64,000 nt of DNA from an uncultured Roseburia sp. (GTDB lineage Bacteria; Bacillota; Clostridia; Lachnospirales; Lachnospiraceae), in NCBI GenBank assembly GCA_947649645.1, contig CANSSP010000005.1:62001-126000 (forward strand), in the 5' to 3' direction. A model generated the notes under the pieces. That model did no database searches and had not been told where the DNA came from. It worked only from the letters and a program-made list of their open reading frames with translations. Both the position numbers and the translations under genes were made by a program. Shown here one piece after another: positions 23,147-30,295 of this stretch; positions within the stretch are counted from its first letter, which is position 1; each line of letters starts with the position of its first letter.

Positions 23147-25048
23147 TTATGCGTCCAGCTGCTTCATATATTTTTCCATCGTGTAAAAGATCGTCGTTTT
23201 ATCGGCAGAACGTGGAAAAAATGTGTTCATGCCAGCCTCAAATATCTTCGTGACCTCCTCCGGACCACCGCGGTCCAGCACTGCAATAATCGGAATCTGT
23301 TTTTTTTCTGCCCCTTCAAGTCTCCGGATTTCTTTTGCCAGCTGACTGCCGCCGGAGGATGCCGGATAAAGACTGGTCACAATCGCGTCAAATGCCCCGT
23401 CCTGTTTCCGATACTGTATTAATGCCGCTTCCCTGGAAGAAGCTACATGGCATTCCATACCGGCATTCTTAAAATAGTCACGGTAAAGTGCGGCATAACC
23501 AGTATTCCCCTCAACCAGCAGCACCCGTTTTCCCGCAAAACAAAACTCTTTTTTTTCTGTCCGGTCACAATCTGTTTCTCTGCAGATATCAGAAACAAGC
23601 TGATATATTTTCTCCTGAAGAAGGGGACGTTCGAGAAAATAATCTGCTCCGCATTCTCTCAGCGCTGCCTGATTCTGTGCGTCTTTCTCAATGATTGCTA
23701 TAATACACACGGAATTTCCGGTATTCTGTGTCCTGATCTGCCCCAGAAGCTCTGACCCGCCTCTCTCGATCATATTCCAGTCCAGAAAACAGACGTTAAA
23801 TCCACTGCCACATGTGCTTGTTTCCCGAAAAAGCCGCAAAGCATGTCCCACATGATCGGAAACAGTACAGCGGACACCAAGCCTTGACAACCCTGTGGAC
23901 AGATAACCGCTCGTACATTCGTCATCGCTGACAATCACAGCATTCAGATCTCCAAAACTGGTCATCCCTTTTTTTTCCTTTAATCTTCCCGCCGGAAGAA
24001 TCACACGAAATCCAGTCTCTGCTCCCGACGGCGAAATCAGGCGTTCTACCTTTCCTCCCATCAGATCCGCAAGGCTTTCCGCGAGGAGAATACCGTCCGC
24101 TTTTTCTCTTTTGGAAATACAGGGCGGATCCCGCTCACTTGCACGGCAGACTTCAATCTCAACCATCGCCTGTCCTTCTTTGTCCATGCGTTCACAATAA
24201 GTCGTCCACATTTTTGCACCGTCTGCCGTATTCAGATATGTATTTGCCAGCAGGCTTCTCCAGATCGCACGCATTGGCGTCAGATCTGCAGACAGTGCTG
24301 TCTGAATCCATCTGTGCACCTTAAACGAGAGATGAATTTTCCGGTTCTGACATCTCTCATACAGCTCTTTTGAAACCGCCGTTATCATATCATTCAGCCA
24401 GAATGCAGTCGTTGATTTTCTCTTTTCGTCACTGCATAGTTTTCCCATTTCGGAAATATCCTCGGTAATCGCCGCAAGATATCCCGTCTGCTTTCGGACC
24501 TCAGCCAGTGTTTCACGTGTTTTCCCCTCCTTCCAGAAATGAATCTGGCCAGTGACGGCGAGGAGATTCCGGATGGGCCGTCGCAGCTCCGTGACAATCC
24601 CTTTCAGAAAATTTCTGTGAATCTGATTTACATGCATTTCATCTGCCAGCTGTCTCTGGAGCATCATACGGCCAAAAACATAGTTCTGCATGACATTTCT
24701 TACCCGGTTACGGATTACGGACGGGTTGTCGGGAGAAAAGATAAAATCATCCGCGCCCAGCTCCAGCATTCTGGCTTCCATATTTTCGTCCGCCGCTGTT
24801 CTGACCACAACCGGGATATCCCGAAGCCGGCTGTCCGCTTTCATCTGTTTTAACACATCGCAGCCGTCCGCTTCCGACAAAAAGATATCCAGAACAACGA
24901 TGTCGATACGCTGTCGACCGAGTGCCAGCATAGCCTCCTGTGTATTTCTCGCCTCTACGATTTCGTATTCGGATTGAAACATCTCCTTCAATGATACACG
25001 GTTCACTTCTACATCGTCGGCTACAAGCATAGTCAGTTTTTCTACCAT
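23147..25048 (-). CDS. Three-receiver signalling protein with a degenerate histidine-kinase core
   Basis: A 633-residue soluble protein: REC1 (about 6-118, phosphoacceptor D54 and acidic pair D11/D12), a HisKA/HATPase-like core (about 135-355), REC2 (about 368-490, D423 in FLDWNM) and REC3 (about 506-630). The helix that should carry the phosphoacceptor reads IVTELRRPI, with T153 where kinases have H. The G-box is also altered (GILLAESLADLMGG). REC3 has S559 in place of aspartate, and the conserved switch lysine is replaced in REC1 (FSPD) and REC2 (ERP). So it cannot autophosphorylate in the usual way and looks like a phosphorelay decoy, scaffold or reader. Upstream of two coat-type genes on the same strand. 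Confidence 0.8.
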   Translation of the reverse strand: MVEKLTMLVADDVEVNRVSLKEMFQSEYEIVEARNTQEAMLALGRQRIDIVVLDIFLSEADGCDVLKQMKADSRLRDIPVVVRTAADENMEARMLELGADDFIFSPDNPSVIRNRVRNVMQNYVFGRMMLQRQLADEMHVNQIHRNFLKGIVTELRRPIRNLLAVTGQIHFWKEGKTRETLAEVRKQTGYLAAITEDISEMGKLCSDEKRKSTTAFWLNDMITAVSKELYERCQNRKIHLSFKVHRWIQTALSADLTPMRAIWRSLLANTYLNTADGAKMWTTYCERMDKEGQAMVEIEVCRASERDPPCISKREKADGILLAESLADLMGGKVERLISPSGAETGFRVILPAGRLKEKKGMTSFGDLNAVIVSDDECTSGYLSTGLSRLGVRCTVSDHVGHALRLFRETSTCGSGFNVCFLDWNMIERGGSELLGQIRTQNTGNSVCIIAIIEKDAQNQAALRECGADYFLERPLLQEKIYQLVSDICRETDCDRTEKKEFCFAGKRVLLVEGNTGYAALYRDYFKNAGMECHVASSREAALIQYRKQDGAFDAIVTSLYPASSGGSQLAKEIRRLEGAEKKQIPIIAVLDRGGPEEVTKIFEAGMNTFFPRSADKTTIFYTMEKYMKQLDA

Positions 25049-25248: not shown

Positions 25249-27105
25249 TTATTTTTTTCTCCTGCGGCTCTCAAAATAGACAAAACGTTCAATCGCGTCA
25301 AGAATATCCGCAAAATCTTCTCTTGGAGCAAGTTCAATGTACCGCTCAAGAAGCTCCCTTTCCTGATCCCTGTACCGCCCGTAAAAGATATCATAGAGAT
25401 TGTGCCCGCGCAGATAGATTCGAATCTCTTCCATATGCGCGCGCATATCGTCCGCGTCCAGAAAATCTCTTCCGAGTACACTGCGAAGGTGTTTTCCGCT
25501 CGAGATACGATAAAGATATTCTCTCCATTTTGCAAAAAGAATCTCATAAAATTGTTCTTCAGATGTCACGATCCCAAGTTTTACCATAATCTCAGGATTC
25601 AGAAAGTAGTTCTCAAATGAATAGTATTTCAGAATCAAAACGTTTTCGCGGCGTACCTTGGGCAGCGTGTCGATGTCTTCCAGATTTCTCTCTTCATAAT
25701 ACCTGCACAGCTGCCTCCCCAGCTCATCGGCATCCTTGCCATCCCCGTCACGTATCATCAGAAAATGGTCTTTTAAATAGACTTGATTGATATATTTCAG
25801 ATTTGCATAAGTTTTAATATTCGTACAGCTATTTGTGGTAATGATGGCGATCCGGGAGAGCTTTCCCTCATCGTCATATGTTTCCGAATAATATTTTTTG
25901 ATAAGAAGCGGCAGACGGCTTTTATCCTGCCTTCCTTCCACGATAAAAACAAAATTTACATTCATCAGATCATTTGCCGTATAGCCGAGATCGTCTAAAA
26001 TTGCGCTGATATCTGTTTTTTCCCGTACCGTCGGACAGCCCTGGGCATCCAGAACCACCTGTCGGATCTGTCTGCTGTTGAAATTGGCAAGAAGATTGGG
26101 CGAATGCGTAGAAAAAATCACCTGGTTTTTTTTTGAGAGCCGGTAGAGAAGATCGCCCGATGTCTTCTGCAGCTTCGGATGCAGAAAAATTTCCGGATCC
26201 TCAATCATAATGATGCTTGGTACTCTCTGTTCATCCTGGACGTAAGCCTCCAGTAAAGAAAGCATATAGATACTGCGCATTCCTTTTCCCATCCGGCTCA
26301 CCGGGCGCGTTAAGTTCTGTATGGGATTGCGCATTTCTGTTGTCACTTTCAGCATCTGTTCTACATCACGGTTCATTGTGTAGAGAATCTCGTCCGAGCC
26401 GCCGTTTTTCCGAAAATTCACATTGACTTTTCTGGCAAAAGTGTCCAGACTGTGCTGATACAGCTTATAATCCAGAAGTTTTGCCGTTTCGGCGACATTC
26501 AGTTCTTCCGGCTGTTTCTGATTGATCAGGCCGATACAGGAAAAGCAGTGGCTGCAATGCCGGGCCTGGTTGAACATACAGGTATCCGCCCGCATTCGTT
26601 TGAGCATTTCATCTTCCTGCAGTATCAGAAAATCCTGTTCCAGTTGTTTTAAGTCACGCTCGGCATCGATATAGTAAATGCGTGGAAATACTTCCGCCAG
26701 AAATACGTTATTTTTACTCACGCCGTCAGAATAACGTACCCGGCCCTCTTTATTTGCATTCATGGCATAGGATAACGTATGTCCCGAAAAAGACGGCAGC
26801 TTCCTGGAAAAGTCTTCCAGCCATGCATCGCGTCTTTTATACTGACTCACAGCACCGTTCTGATGCATCTGTGCAAGATCACTGTCGGAAAATTCCAGTG
26901 AAATCAGAATCTCTATATTGGCATAATCCGCACTGAAATCCTGCGGGTGAATGCGGTATGCCCCGACTGCAGCCCTGACCGCATCCAGGATCGTTGTCTT
27001 TCCGGTGTTATTCTGCCCCACAAGAATCAGCGCGTTCTCCACATCATTTATGACAACGTCCCTGATTGCTTTAAAATTACGGATATGAAGACTGGATATT
27101 TTCAC
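25249..27105 (-). CDS. OLD-family ATPase with TOPRIM nuclease domain, in the feo operon
   Basis: A 618-residue protein: AAA/ABC-type ATPase with Walker A GQNNTGKTT (30-38), Walker B SIIMIEDPEIFLHP (297-310) and switch histidine region FSTHSP, then a TOPRIM domain with E390 (FIVEGRQD) and D453/D455 (RDGDGKD). This is the plan of OLD-family endonucleases. Residues 176-190 contain C-x7-C-x2-C-x2-C (C176, C184, C187, C190) inside the ATPase part, a possible Fe-S or zinc site. It starts at a GTG nine bases after the FeoB-associated gene, with GAGGG overlapping that gene's stop, so it is the fourth gene of the feo operon. No helicase or other Gabija-type partner is adjacent. DNA repair, defence or iron-linked function are all possible. 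Confidence 0.82.
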   Translation of the reverse strand: MKISSLHIRNFKAIRDVVINDVENALILVGQNNTGKTTILDAVRAAVGAYRIHPQDFSADYANIEILISLEFSDSDLAQMHQNGAVSQYKRRDAWLEDFSRKLPSFSGHTLSYAMNANKEGRVRYSDGVSKNNVFLAEVFPRIYYIDAERDLKQLEQDFLILQEDEMLKRMRADTCMFNQARHCSHCFSCIGLINQKQPEELNVAETAKLLDYKLYQHSLDTFARKVNVNFRKNGGSDEILYTMNRDVEQMLKVTTEMRNPIQNLTRPVSRMGKGMRSIYMLSLLEAYVQDEQRVPSIIMIEDPEIFLHPKLQKTSGDLLYRLSKKNQVIFSTHSPNLLANFNSRQIRQVVLDAQGCPTVREKTDISAILDDLGYTANDLMNVNFVFIVEGRQDKSRLPLLIKKYYSETYDDEGKLSRIAIITTNSCTNIKTYANLKYINQVYLKDHFLMIRDGDGKDADELGRQLCRYYEERNLEDIDTLPKVRRENVLILKYYSFENYFLNPEIMVKLGIVTSEEQFYEILFAKWREYLYRISSGKHLRSVLGRDFLDADDMRAHMEEIRIYLRGHNLYDIFYGRYRDQERELLERYIELAPREDFADILDAIERFVYFESRRRKK

Positions 27106-27114
27106 ACAAATCCC

Positions 27115-27285
27115 TCAACTCTCTTTATTCGTTTTATTTCCTGTTCCACAGAACCCCTGGGCACAGTTTTTACAATTCCGGCAGTCTCCGCAGCCTCCGC
27201 TTTTTCTGGAAAAACACAGAAGCGACAGAGAACGGGCAAACCAGAACAAAATCGCACCGAGTAAAACTATATCCACAGCATTCAT
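27115..27285 (-). CDS. FeoB-associated Cys-rich membrane protein
   Basis: A 56-residue protein with one N-terminal membrane helix (MNAVDIVLLGAILFWFARS) and a cysteine-rich cytosolic tail (CGDCRNCKNCAQGFC). This matches the FeoB-associated Cys-rich membrane protein family, thought to help ferrous iron uptake. Its ATG overlaps the feoB stop (ATGA), which decides the start against an upstream in-frame ATG. Followed after nine bases by the OLD-family gene. Confidence 0.9.
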   Translation of the reverse strand: MNAVDIVLLGAILFWFARSLSLLCFSRKSGGCGDCRNCKNCAQGFCGTGNKTNKES

Positions 27286-29297
27286 AAAAATCTCCCGATC
27301 TGATACACCAGAAATGCGACAGTCCACGCCACACAGCACTGCAGCACAACAACCATCGCCGCCTTAAAGCCGCTGTGCAGTTCCCGCTTTACAGCGGCTA
27401 CCGCCGCGACGCACGGCGTGTACAGCAGTGTAAAGATAAGAAAACTGGCTGCAGAAACTCCGGAAAACATCGTGTTCAGAACATTTCCCAGATTTGCCGC
27501 CGAAGTCTGTGTCAGAACACTTAAAGTGCTTACAACTGCTTCTTTTGCGCTGAATCCTGTGATAAGCGCCGTTGAAACACGCCAGTCCGAAAAACCAAGA
27601 GGACCAAACAACGGTGCAATCCATTGGCCGATCATGGCAAGAAGACTGTCCCTGCTCTCGTCCACAACGTTAAACCGCAGATCAAATGTCTGCAAAAACC
27701 AGATAATGATTGTGGCTACAAAAATTACGGTAAAGGCTCTTTCAATAAAATCTTTTGCCTTCTCCCACATCAGTCTCAGAACGCTCTTTGCCGAAGGAAA
27801 GCGATAATTGGGCAGCTCCATGACAAATGGTATGGGATTTCCTTTAAAAGCAGTCCTGTTTAAAAGCAGTGCCGAGAAAATCCCGACCAGAATACCGGTC
27901 ACATAGAGTGCAATCACGACAAGAGCCCCTCTGCCCGGATAAAAAGCAGCCGCAAACACGGAATAAATCGGTATTTTTGCCGAACAGCTCATATATGGTG
28001 TCAGCATAATCGTCATTCGCCGGTCCCTCTCTGAAGAAAGCGTTCTCGTCGCCATGACTGCCGGAACCGTACATCCAAAGCCGATCAGCATCGGGACAAA
28101 ACTGCGGCCGGACAATCCGATTTTGCGAAGCGGCTTATCCATGACAAACGCCACACGGGCCATATAACCAGAATCTTCCAGGATGGACAAAAAGAAAAAT
28201 AACACTACAATAATGGGCAGAAAACTCAAAACACTTCCCACTCCGGCAAACACACCGTCAATCACAAGACTATGTACAACCGGATTCATTCCATAAGAGG
28301 AAAGCGCCGTATCACAGAGCGCCGTAAACGCATCGATCCCCATCGCCAGCAGGTCGCTCAGTGCCGCGCCGATCACATTGAATGTCAGCCAGAAAATCAA
28401 AAGCATAATTGCCAGAAACATCGGGATTGCCAGATATTTGCTGGTCAGAACACTGTCAATTCTGACACTGCGGATATGTTCCCGGCTTTCCTGACACTTT
28501 TTCACTGTCTTTGCACATACCTTTTCAATAAAACGGTAACGCATGTCCGCCAGGGCAGCATTTCGATCCAGCCCACAGTCCTTTTCCATTTCTTCAATGC
28601 TGTGCTCCATCATCTCAAGTTCGTTCTGTGATAAAAAAAGACGCGCAATGATTCCCTCATCTTCCTCCACGATCTTCGCAGCCGCAAACCGCGGCGACAT
28701 CCCGATACGGACCGCATGGTCTTCCACCTGATGAGACAGCGCATGTATACAGCGATGAACCGGTCCCTGCTCGCAGAAATCCATTACTTTCGGATAGATC
28801 TTCTGTCTCGAGACGCGGATTATCGCCTCGATCAGATCTTCGATCCCTTCGTCTTTCGCAGCGCTGATCGGCACTACCGGAATGCCGAGCTCTTTTTCCA
28901 TCTCCCTGTAATCGATGGAACCGCCGTTTCCGCGCACCTCATCCATCATATTGAGTGCCAGTACCATCGGAACATGCATTTCCAGAAGCTGAAGCGTCAG
29001 ATAAAGATTGCGCTCAATATTGGTCGCATCGACAATATTGATAATCCCGTCCGGCCTCTCGTTTAAAATGAAGTCTCTTGTCACAATCTCTTCGTTTGTA
29101 TACGGACGTATGGAATAAATTCCCGGCAGATCCACAACTGAACATTCTTTTGCTGAGCGGATCTCTCCCACTTTCTGGTCAACAGTGACACCCGGAAAAT
29201 TTCCCACATGCTGATTCGCCCCTGTAAGCTGATTGAAAAGGGTTGTTTTCCCACAATTCTGATTTCCCGCTAATGCAAATATCATGTCTTCTCTCAT
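27282..29297 (-). CDS. feoB: Ferrous iron transporter FeoB
   Basis: A 671-residue Fe(II) permease. The N-terminal GTPase domain has G1 GNQNCGKTT, G3 DLPG and G4 NMMD, followed by the helical GDI domain (about 170-260) and a membrane domain with two Gate motifs (IGFGCTVPAVMATRTLSS and TGFSAKEAVVSTLSVL) each preceded by multiple helices. Length and domain order are complete. It overlaps feoA by 4 bases and the Cys-rich gene by 4 bases, a tightly coupled operon. Confidence 0.98.
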   Translation of the reverse strand: MREDMIFALAGNQNCGKTTLFNQLTGANQHVGNFPGVTVDQKVGEIRSAKECSVVDLPGIYSIRPYTNEEIVTRDFILNERPDGIINIVDATNIERNLYLTLQLLEMHVPMVLALNMMDEVRGNGGSIDYREMEKELGIPVVPISAAKDEGIEDLIEAIIRVSRQKIYPKVMDFCEQGPVHRCIHALSHQVEDHAVRIGMSPRFAAAKIVEEDEGIIARLFLSQNELEMMEHSIEEMEKDCGLDRNAALADMRYRFIEKVCAKTVKKCQESREHIRSVRIDSVLTSKYLAIPMFLAIMLLIFWLTFNVIGAALSDLLAMGIDAFTALCDTALSSYGMNPVVHSLVIDGVFAGVGSVLSFLPIIVVLFFFLSILEDSGYMARVAFVMDKPLRKIGLSGRSFVPMLIGFGCTVPAVMATRTLSSERDRRMTIMLTPYMSCSAKIPIYSVFAAAFYPGRGALVVIALYVTGILVGIFSALLLNRTAFKGNPIPFVMELPNYRFPSAKSVLRLMWEKAKDFIERAFTVIFVATIIIWFLQTFDLRFNVVDESRDSLLAMIGQWIAPLFGPLGFSDWRVSTALITGFSAKEAVVSTLSVLTQTSAANLGNVLNTMFSGVSAASFLIFTLLYTPCVAAVAAVKRELHSGFKAAMVVVLQCCVAWTVAFLVYQIGRFL

Positions 29298-29524
29298 CTC
29301 TCCTCTTCTGCAACGGTAATTTTACTGGCGTCTTCCTTCCGGAGCGTAAGCTCATAACCGCGAATGCGGATCTCTATGGGATCTCCCATCGGAGCAATTT
29401 TGCGGACCACAACCACAGTTCCCGGAATCAGACCCATATCCAGAAGCCTGCATCTTAAAGCCCCTTCTCCTCCCACCTTCGTAATCACTGCATCTTTCCC
29501 GATCGGCAGTTCAGCTAATGTCAT
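29294..29524 (-). CDS. feoA: Ferrous iron transport protein FeoA
   Basis: A 76-residue SH3-like FeoA protein (LRCRLLDMGLIPGTVV, IRIRGYELTLRKEDA), a cytosolic regulator of FeoB. First gene of the four-gene feo operon and overlaps feoB by ATGA. GAGGTGA lies before the start. It follows the flagellar run on the same strand, after a 90-base gap; I found no convincing iron-regulator box or -35/-10 pair in that gap. Confidence 0.95.
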   Translation of the reverse strand: MTLAELPIGKDAVITKVGGEGALRCRLLDMGLIPGTVVVVRKIAPMGDPIEIRIRGYELTLRKEDASKITVAEEER

Positions 29525-29614: not shown

Positions 29615-30295
29615 TTAATATTTGATTGGCCCGGATTTTAAAATATCCGCCACCTGCTCCATGGTAAGACCATAGGGTATCTCATACTCCCCGGTACTCA
29701 TACTCGAAGCATATCCGATCTCAAACAGATACGTCCGCATCGCTTCCGCATCGTTTATCACATTGTTTGCCGCAAGTCTCTCACAGACGGTACGACAGAC
29801 ATCGCCGCGCTCAATTACAAGCCGGTATGCACTTTCCGGAACCGAAACATCATTTCCTTCCGGCGTATTGTCTGCCCCCTGCGTCTGATTGTCGGCTTCT
29901 CCTTCCGGCTCCCCGGCACCCTGATCCGGGTTTTCACCTTCCGGATTCTGTGCATCTCCGGCTCCCTGGTCCGGGTTTTCACCTTCCGGATTCTGTGCAT
30001 CTCCGGCTCCCTGGTCCGGGTTTTCACCTTCCGGATTCTGCGCATCCCCGGCTCCCTGATCCGGAGAAACCGATGTTTCCTTTTCCGGTACTTTGTTTTC
30101 CGGATTTTCATCTAAAGAATTTCCCGCCGCCCCGTCGTCTGCATCCTCCTTCATCACCATTCCAAGCTGGGCAGCCCTTGCAATGATTTCTTCATCCGAA
30201 AGAGAAGCTTCCTTCTTCGGAGAAGCGATCGTCATTATAATTGTCGTGACGAGAATACCGATTCCAAGCCCACGTAAATAATATTTTAATTTCAC
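29615..30295 (-). CDS. Membrane-anchored protein with MltG/YceG-type LysM-like domain and a 15-residue repeat linker
   Basis: A 226-residue protein with an N-terminal membrane helix (about 7-24), a flexible linker holding three exact 15-residue repeats of the type NPDQGAGDAQNPEGE, and a C-terminal domain (about 155-226). That domain has the look of the LysM-like part of endolytic transglycosylase MltG (YRLVIERGDVCRTVCERL, STGEYEIPYGLTMEQVADIL). The catalytic transglycosylase part is absent. It may bind peptidoglycan near the flagellar base. Last gene of the flagellar run, overlapping the previous gene by 4 bases. Family assignment is moderate. Confidence 0.65.
   Translation of the reverse strand: MKLKYYLRGLGIGILVTTIIMTIASPKKEASLSDEEIIARAAQLGMVMKEDADDGAAGNSLDENPENKVPEKETSVSPDQGAGDAQNPEGENPDQGAGDAQNPEGENPDQGAGDAQNPEGENPDQGAGEPEGEADNQTQGADNTPEGNDVSVPESAYRLVIERGDVCRTVCERLAANNVINDAEAMRTYLFEIGYASSMSTGEYEIPYGLTMEQVADILKSGPIKY
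29925..30059. repeat. Tandem 45-bp coding repeat (3 copies)
   Basis: Copies start at 29925, 29970 and 30015, each 45 bp and almost identical at the DNA level, encoding the Pro/Asp/Gly/Glu-rich 15-residue linker unit of the gene around it. A fourth partial copy follows at 30060. Near-identity suggests recent expansion by slippage, and copy number may vary between strains. Confidence 0.95.

Follow-up and report, generated by a model that had tools for sequence, protein, structure and literature searches.

The closest described relatives of the protein analyzed here are the Class 1 OLD nucleases, which an excerpt of PMC10568477 presents as single genes lying away from other defence genes, and whose isolated genes are called rare, at 0.45% of bacterial genomes, in a portion of PMC13261556. 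P2 Old acts as a 5'-3' exonuclease in vitro according to the same excerpt of PMC10568477 and is reported to cleave host tRNA in the portion of PMC13261556, which also cites a description of an archaeal OLD as a cell-cycle gene. For the Thermus scotoductus protein (TsOLD), an excerpt of PMC7049728 gives the metal ligands as E377, D431 and D433, together with D381, S478 and E480, and places the dimerisation domain in an insertion between beta-8 and beta-9 of the ATPase.

We analyze an OLD-type gene carried by a 64,000-nucleotide stretch of an uncultured Roseburia sp. contig (hereafter, the window), in which it follows the ferrous iron uptake genes feoA and feoB, and we compare it with its relatives in Lachnospiraceae and beyond. 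It is a solitary accessory gene, patchy in its presence and found beside many unrelated genes. The reading we prefer, and hold with moderate confidence, is that these genes form a Lachnospiraceae clade of solitary, Class 1-like OLD nucleases that are probably anti-phage and carry a putative metal-binding insert with four cysteines (Cys4). The nuclease family is known; the Cys4-bearing clade appears to be the new part, as the open-licence literature that we searched contains no published description of it that we could find.

The reading frame is open over 618 codons with no internal stop. Its Pfam match is AAA_15 (8e-29), with OLD-like_TOPRIM below the cut-off (0.0048, 17.8 versus 23.2 bits); the best PADLOC model is Old PDLC02358 (1.6e-35, residues 2-434), and the best PDB match is the T. 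scotoductus OLD 6p74 (2.7e-14 with a profile). As in the OLD family, the N-terminal half holds an ABC-type ATPase (by Pfam, PADLOC and alignment), with GQNNTGKT as Walker A (K36) and IIMIEDPE as Walker B (E302), and the C-terminal half holds the TOPRIM ligands E390, D453 and D455 along with D394, S496 and E498. By motif order, E390, D394, D453, D455, S496 and E498 correspond to E377, D381, D431, D433, S478 and E480 of TsOLD. When the window protein is aligned with 100 family homologues (101 sequences), K36 and all six of these TOPRIM residues are identical in 101 of 101, and E302 and R566 are kept in 100. The closest relative, at 81% identity, comes from a same-genus genome (G015, locus L070). 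These matches and residues identify the product as an intact OLD-type ATPase/TOPRIM protein (Table 1).

Table 1. Features of the OLD locus in the window (coordinates in window positions)
Feature	Position	Strand	Basis or remark
Receiver-domain protein, downstream gene	23147..25048	-	Response_reg (Pfam) in 3 stretches, 3.9e-37
OLD-like ATPase/TOPRIM protein, 618 aa, GTG start	25249..27105	-	Pfam, PADLOC, conserved active-site residues
TOPRIM active site, codons E390, D394, D453, D455, S496, E498	25612..25938	-	motif order versus TsOLD
C176-x7-C184-x2-C187-x2-C190	26536..26580	-	within 24-28-residue insertion
Small cysteine-rich ORF following feoB, with an uncertain start codon	27115..27339	-	overlaps feoB end
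feoB	27282..29297	-	TIGR00437 8.8e-186; FeoB_N 3.8e-67
feoA	29294..29524	-	Pfam FeoA 1.3e-23

An earlier note on this DNA had claimed intact Walker and TOPRIM residues and a C-x7-C-x2-C-x2-C motif at residues 176-190 that could bind Fe-S or zinc, and had inferred a link between the nuclease and iron. The first claim is borne out by the residue counts above, the motif positions are correct, and its cysteines prove to be conserved, so that an OLD protein with a conserved cysteine motif and a credible metal site stands; the link to iron uptake, taken up below, does not. Of a first set (the window and 89 loci), 90 of 90 sequences carry all four cysteines; of a second, 99 of 101 do (the window and 98 of 100 family loci). 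As 13 loci are shared, the two sets hold 175 distinct relatives, and when the window is counted with them, 174 of the 176 sequences have the complete motif: homologues do not lack it as often as they have it. The two exceptions, L339 and L345, lack C187 only and retain the other three. Genomes drawn from the order give the motif in 27 of 27 matches covering the region, again counting the window (the fragmentary L177 and L178 do not span it); the distant order-draw match L179 is without it.

Because four of the protein's seven cysteines are kept in 174 of 176 sequences, the cluster is beyond chance. C427 (176 of 176) and C467 (174 of 176) are conserved as well, so invariance by itself is no proof of a metal site. 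A sister protein from another class, L180 (33% identical), carries C-x2-C-x4-C-x2-C at the same place, and four clustered cysteines that are kept while their spacing drifts are the pattern expected of a metal site; the three genomes searched for further sisters of this kind yielded none beyond L180. Four cysteines within 20 residues occur in none of nine distant relatives (L179, L181-L183, L185-L189; the distant phylum matches L184 and L191 fall outside this tally, having been missed by the profile). In an alignment at about 20% identity, the 24-28-residue insertion with the cysteines is missing from P2 Old and from five further distant OLD proteins. Judging from this alignment and the TsOLD fold, the insertion would lie within the dimerisation region of the ATPase half, and we consider it likely that it forms a metal site there, Zn and Fe-S being indistinguishable from sequence.

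A mechanism can be sketched on this basis. The Cys4 insertion would belong to the dimerisation domain, and its cysteines would bind one structural metal, either Zn2+ or an Fe-S cluster, which may shape the OLD dimer or its contact with nucleic acid. ATP binding, together with an infection or DNA-damage cue, might then switch on the TOPRIM nuclease, whose cleavage of DNA or RNA would be under ATP control, and the outcome would be defence against phages, as with other members of the OLD family. It is membership of the family that suggests this anti-phage role; against it, few direct neighbours match defence models, no relative on a viral contig is confirmed among 65 pattern matches, and the seven phage matches are all distant. 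Of 85 upstream neighbours, those matching defence models belong to 13 families, each represented once; downstream, where 88 of 89 neighbour proteins were scanned (L086 was left out), 47 families match among the 88, the best 25 of the 47 having at most two members each, and one match is Wadjet JetA.

The clade is nearly confined to Lachnospiraceae. The relatives counted number ~430. Within the family, 106 of 396 genomes and 93 of 317 genera have the gene, with one match per genome when at most three candidates are scored in each; within the genus, 15 of 62 genomes have it. The frequency is 28 of 393 genomes in a draw from the order and 2 of 393 in a draw from the class, the window being one of the two. 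A draw from the phylum gives 11 of 398 when the limit is E<=1e-12, with the window, G931 (1.5e-93), G957 and G980 at the top; G957 (~1e-38) and G980 (~1e-33) are without the Cys4, and a search seeded with G957 gave nothing useful. Plasmid matches are limited to L. eligens, of which two plasmid records of ~0.63 Mb carry the gene. In one copy on a 0.63-Mb record (L192:6001-7860), which has the Cys4, the gene shares 35 bases with the end of a DUF975 gene. Elsewhere, a short OLD remnant with an in-frame TAG (L177, genome G320) is a sign of gene loss.

The surroundings of the gene are highly varied. In the second set, the upstream neighbours at 99 loci represent 58 families and the downstream neighbours at 96 loci represent 67. 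Among the top clusters that we read, no neighbour family is constant, as for the isolated single genes of Class 1, which have neither a UvrD-like helicase nor a retron partner. The largest cluster covers 18 of 89 loci in the first set and 31 of 100 in the second, and both are parts of locally conserved gene blocks, the 18 first-set loci having cobalamin-type neighbours that we judge to be such a block. The upstream neighbour is on the same strand in 70 of 99 second-set loci, 41 of them with gaps below 60 nt, and in 60 of 85 first-set loci, 37 of them with such gaps; these gaps are approximate because ORF starts were set at the first possible start codon. A habit of sitting at operon tails was considered and dropped, since downstream genes are on the same strand as often (71 of 96) as upstream ones. 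The upstream share is also not clearly above the usual level in bacterial genomes.

One neighbour bears on the suggestion that these are redox- or oxygen-sensing OLD proteins, in which a labile Fe-S cluster on the Cys4 gates the nuclease. Lachnospiraceae are anaerobes, the clade is nearly confined to them, and CxxCxxC spacing recalls Fe-S ligands; the OLD gene moreover lies directly behind a flavin reductase gene (PF01613) in 29 of 100 second-set loci, all of these being among the 49 loci of the deeper half (L297-L345). However, flavin reductase is in the flank of 0 of 89 first-set loci and is present in 138 of 150 genomes. Among the best 30 flavin reductase loci, eight have a shikimate-kinase-like gene directly behind with no OLD between and six have the OLD gene directly behind, and of the remainder some have neither gene in the first 1.5 kb and others only genes from further along the block; four of the eight genomes with the OLD-free block carry the OLD gene elsewhere. 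Since flavin reductase is near-universal and its block also exists without OLD, we reject it as a partner: it marks a location, the commonest one in the deeper half, at which OLD is an accessory and which is either a preferred landing site or an ancestral one. The L180 spacing, CxxC-x4-CxxC, fits zinc equally well, and two members lack one cysteine, so that we regard a redox-gated nuclease as unlikely. Its fuller form, in which an undescribed stand-alone OLD clade of gut anaerobes would provide single-gene immunity by means of a Cys4 Fe-S cluster in the dimerisation insert, with redox state or oxygen as the switch for arming the TOPRIM nuclease, seems to us rather unlikely. As a separate observation, the OLD gene lies in a housekeeping block between flavin reductase and shikimate-kinase/murA-like genes in 32 loci of L246-L345 (within L297-L342).

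These proteins might alternatively be DNA-repair or chromosome-maintenance ATPases with no part in defence. HhH-GPD glycosylase genes are upstream of the OLD gene in 5 of 85 loci, a RarA/MgsA-like gene neighbours it at L070 and L071, and conservation is high, at 48-81% identity to the window protein. The upstream flanks of L100 and L105 have a glycosylase-like gene before the OLD gene and, nearby, what we take to be SbcC/SbcD-like genes. All of these neighbours are minority placements, and the fact that the gene occurs patchily, in 106 of 396 genomes of the family and at many different sites, also speaks against the idea, which we consider quite unlikely, even if a repair or housekeeping role for the clade is conceivable by analogy with the archaeal cell-cycle OLD cited in the portion of PMC13261556.

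We return to solitary, Class 1-like nucleases and to the position of the gene in the window. The GTG at 27105 is nine bases from the end of the small-ORF stop at 27115, the junction reading AGTTGAGGGATTTGTGTG, and a GAGG-type ribosome site covers that stop. Both the spacing and the overlap had been noted before and are seen in the sequence. The upstream gene had been called FeoB-associated, a label that holds for position and for the cysteine-rich tail and, because the ORF has no Pfam match at either length tried, rests on those two; NCBIfam gives no match either. The minus-strand gap separating the small ORF from the OLD start contains no promoter-like or terminator-like match, which makes co-transcription with feo likely, and the OLD gene is probably co-transcribed with feoAB in the source genome. 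On the other side, 200 nt separate the OLD stop from the receiver-domain gene, which is not part of the OLD system. Relatives of the receiver-domain protein are found in 10 of 62 genus genomes at E<=1e-60, window included, and most of the others match only about 490 of its residues. Upstream of feoA, a protein encoded at 29615-30295 carries tandem repeats, nearly identical to one another, of the type DQGAGDAQNPEGENP.

Beyond the window, the association with feo does not recur as a family trait, and we reject it as such on two sets of flanks, orthologous feoB loci and co-occurrence in the genus. A Feo gene is within the fetched flank of 3 of 89 first-set loci (L070, L109 and L110), flank size varying (L064-L068 have ~1.5 kb per side, and many other loci stop at a contig end), and in 1 of 100 second-set flanks of up to 5.5 kb, where the one case, G325, is L110 again; the second set thus adds no further Feo placement. 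Together, 3 of 175 distinct relatives have Feo in the flank and one has it directly upstream, in agreement with FeoB_N as upstream neighbour in 1 of 85 loci. That one is L070, where the OLD gene lies 25 nt behind a fused FeoAB that differs from the window's genes (28% identical). In two related Lachnospiraceae loci (L109:2202-11952 and L110:6479-15930), Feo lies ~2 kb downstream of OLD, which is followed by what are presumably a Crp-like regulator and thioredoxin-like, DtxR-like and suf-like genes beside Feo, the suf-like ones coming after Feo. Seen from feoB, only the window's own locus among the best 30 of the genus has an OLD gene behind it (0 of the 29 others, with downstream flanks of 250-1500 nt, two of them below 400 nt at contig ends). 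Ten orthologous feoB loci that we read all have a short cysteine-rich frame behind feoB, followed by what we take to be a glutamyl-tRNA-synthetase-like or solute-binding-protein-like gene. In the genus, where many genomes are incomplete, 10 of 15 OLD-carrying genomes have a FeoB at E<=1e-100, as do 38 of 45 that lack the OLD gene, so that there is no positive co-occurrence. With three feoB assumed per 3 Mb, the expectation for the 80 loci L070-L149 (373 kb of flank) is ~0.4 Feo placements within 2.5 kb, against the two seen beyond the window, which at most amounts to a weak excess near OLD genes and no linkage.

An OLD nuclease functionally tied to Fe2+ uptake, whether produced only while feo is expressed or supplied with iron by Feo, is thus very improbable: its operon position behind feoAB, the close relative L070 behind a different FeoAB, and L109 and L110 with Feo and suf-like genes nearby, two further placements against ~0.4 expected, are outweighed by the 3 of 175 relatives with Feo in the flank, the single FeoB_N upstream, the absence of OLD behind the other feoB genes and the lack of positive co-occurrence. 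The earlier note had called the nuclease iron-linked, had proposed looking for the cysteines and the feoAB linkage together, and had named random genomic neighbours as evidence to the contrary; the cysteines are kept without the linkage, and the neighbours are random. The open-licence literature searched likewise yielded no OLD system linked to feoB. Closeness behind an unrelated gene is common in the clade and feo is one such neighbour among many; the best reading is that the placement is incidental to this genome. More generally, since OLD genes of this clade sit beside many different housekeeping genes, the operon context of one genome should not be read as function.

The distribution matters in its own right: isolated Class 1 OLD genes are called rare in the portion of PMC13261556 (0.45%), yet 106 of 396 Lachnospiraceae genomes sampled carry a member of the present clade. 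If the Cys4 metal controls the dimer, it would offer a concrete handle on what turns on stand-alone OLD nucleases; if the redox-switch reading were true, a metal-gated immune system would be present in about a quarter of Lachnospiraceae genomes.

Among known systems, Class 2 OLD proteins (GajA of Gabija) share the ATPase-TOPRIM core (PADLOC GajA 4.7e-27) and may share a longer C-terminal region with the window protein. The adjacent GajB helicase of that class is found neither next door in the window, where the neighbours are feo and receiver-domain genes, nor in the neighbour clusters read (top 25 of the first set, top 14 of the second). The Class 3 effector of retron Eco8 has the same ATPase-TOPRIM architecture and scores far under the cut-off (NF038234, 63.5 versus 250 bits); the window gene adjoins feo genes and the gene of the receiver-domain protein. 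By analogy, cysteines in an insertion between ATPase halves, at a place where dimers form, recall the Rad50 zinc hook; the hook, however, has one CxxC per chain and a long coiled coil, whereas the window protein has four cysteines per chain and no room for a coil. The nearest likeness is to Class 1 (P2 Old, TsOLD 6p74, E. coli YbjD/OldB): these proteins, too, have an N-terminal ABC ATPase and a C-terminal TOPRIM domain, share the ligands E, D, DxD and S-x-E, and are encoded by single genes with no constant partner. P2 Old is 19% identical and lacks the 24-28-residue Cys4 insertion. The window protein has 618 residues versus 528 for the 6p74 chain and, unlike Class 1 OLDs, a conserved RGHN motif near its C-terminus; its C-terminal part includes a conserved stretch (R566 in 100 of 101). 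TsOLD, as a Class 1 protein, is shorter than Class 2 OLDs and lacks their C-terminal helical domain, which the window protein may or may not have. The isolated gene fits Class 1, and with the longer C-terminus we describe the clade as no more than Class 1-like.
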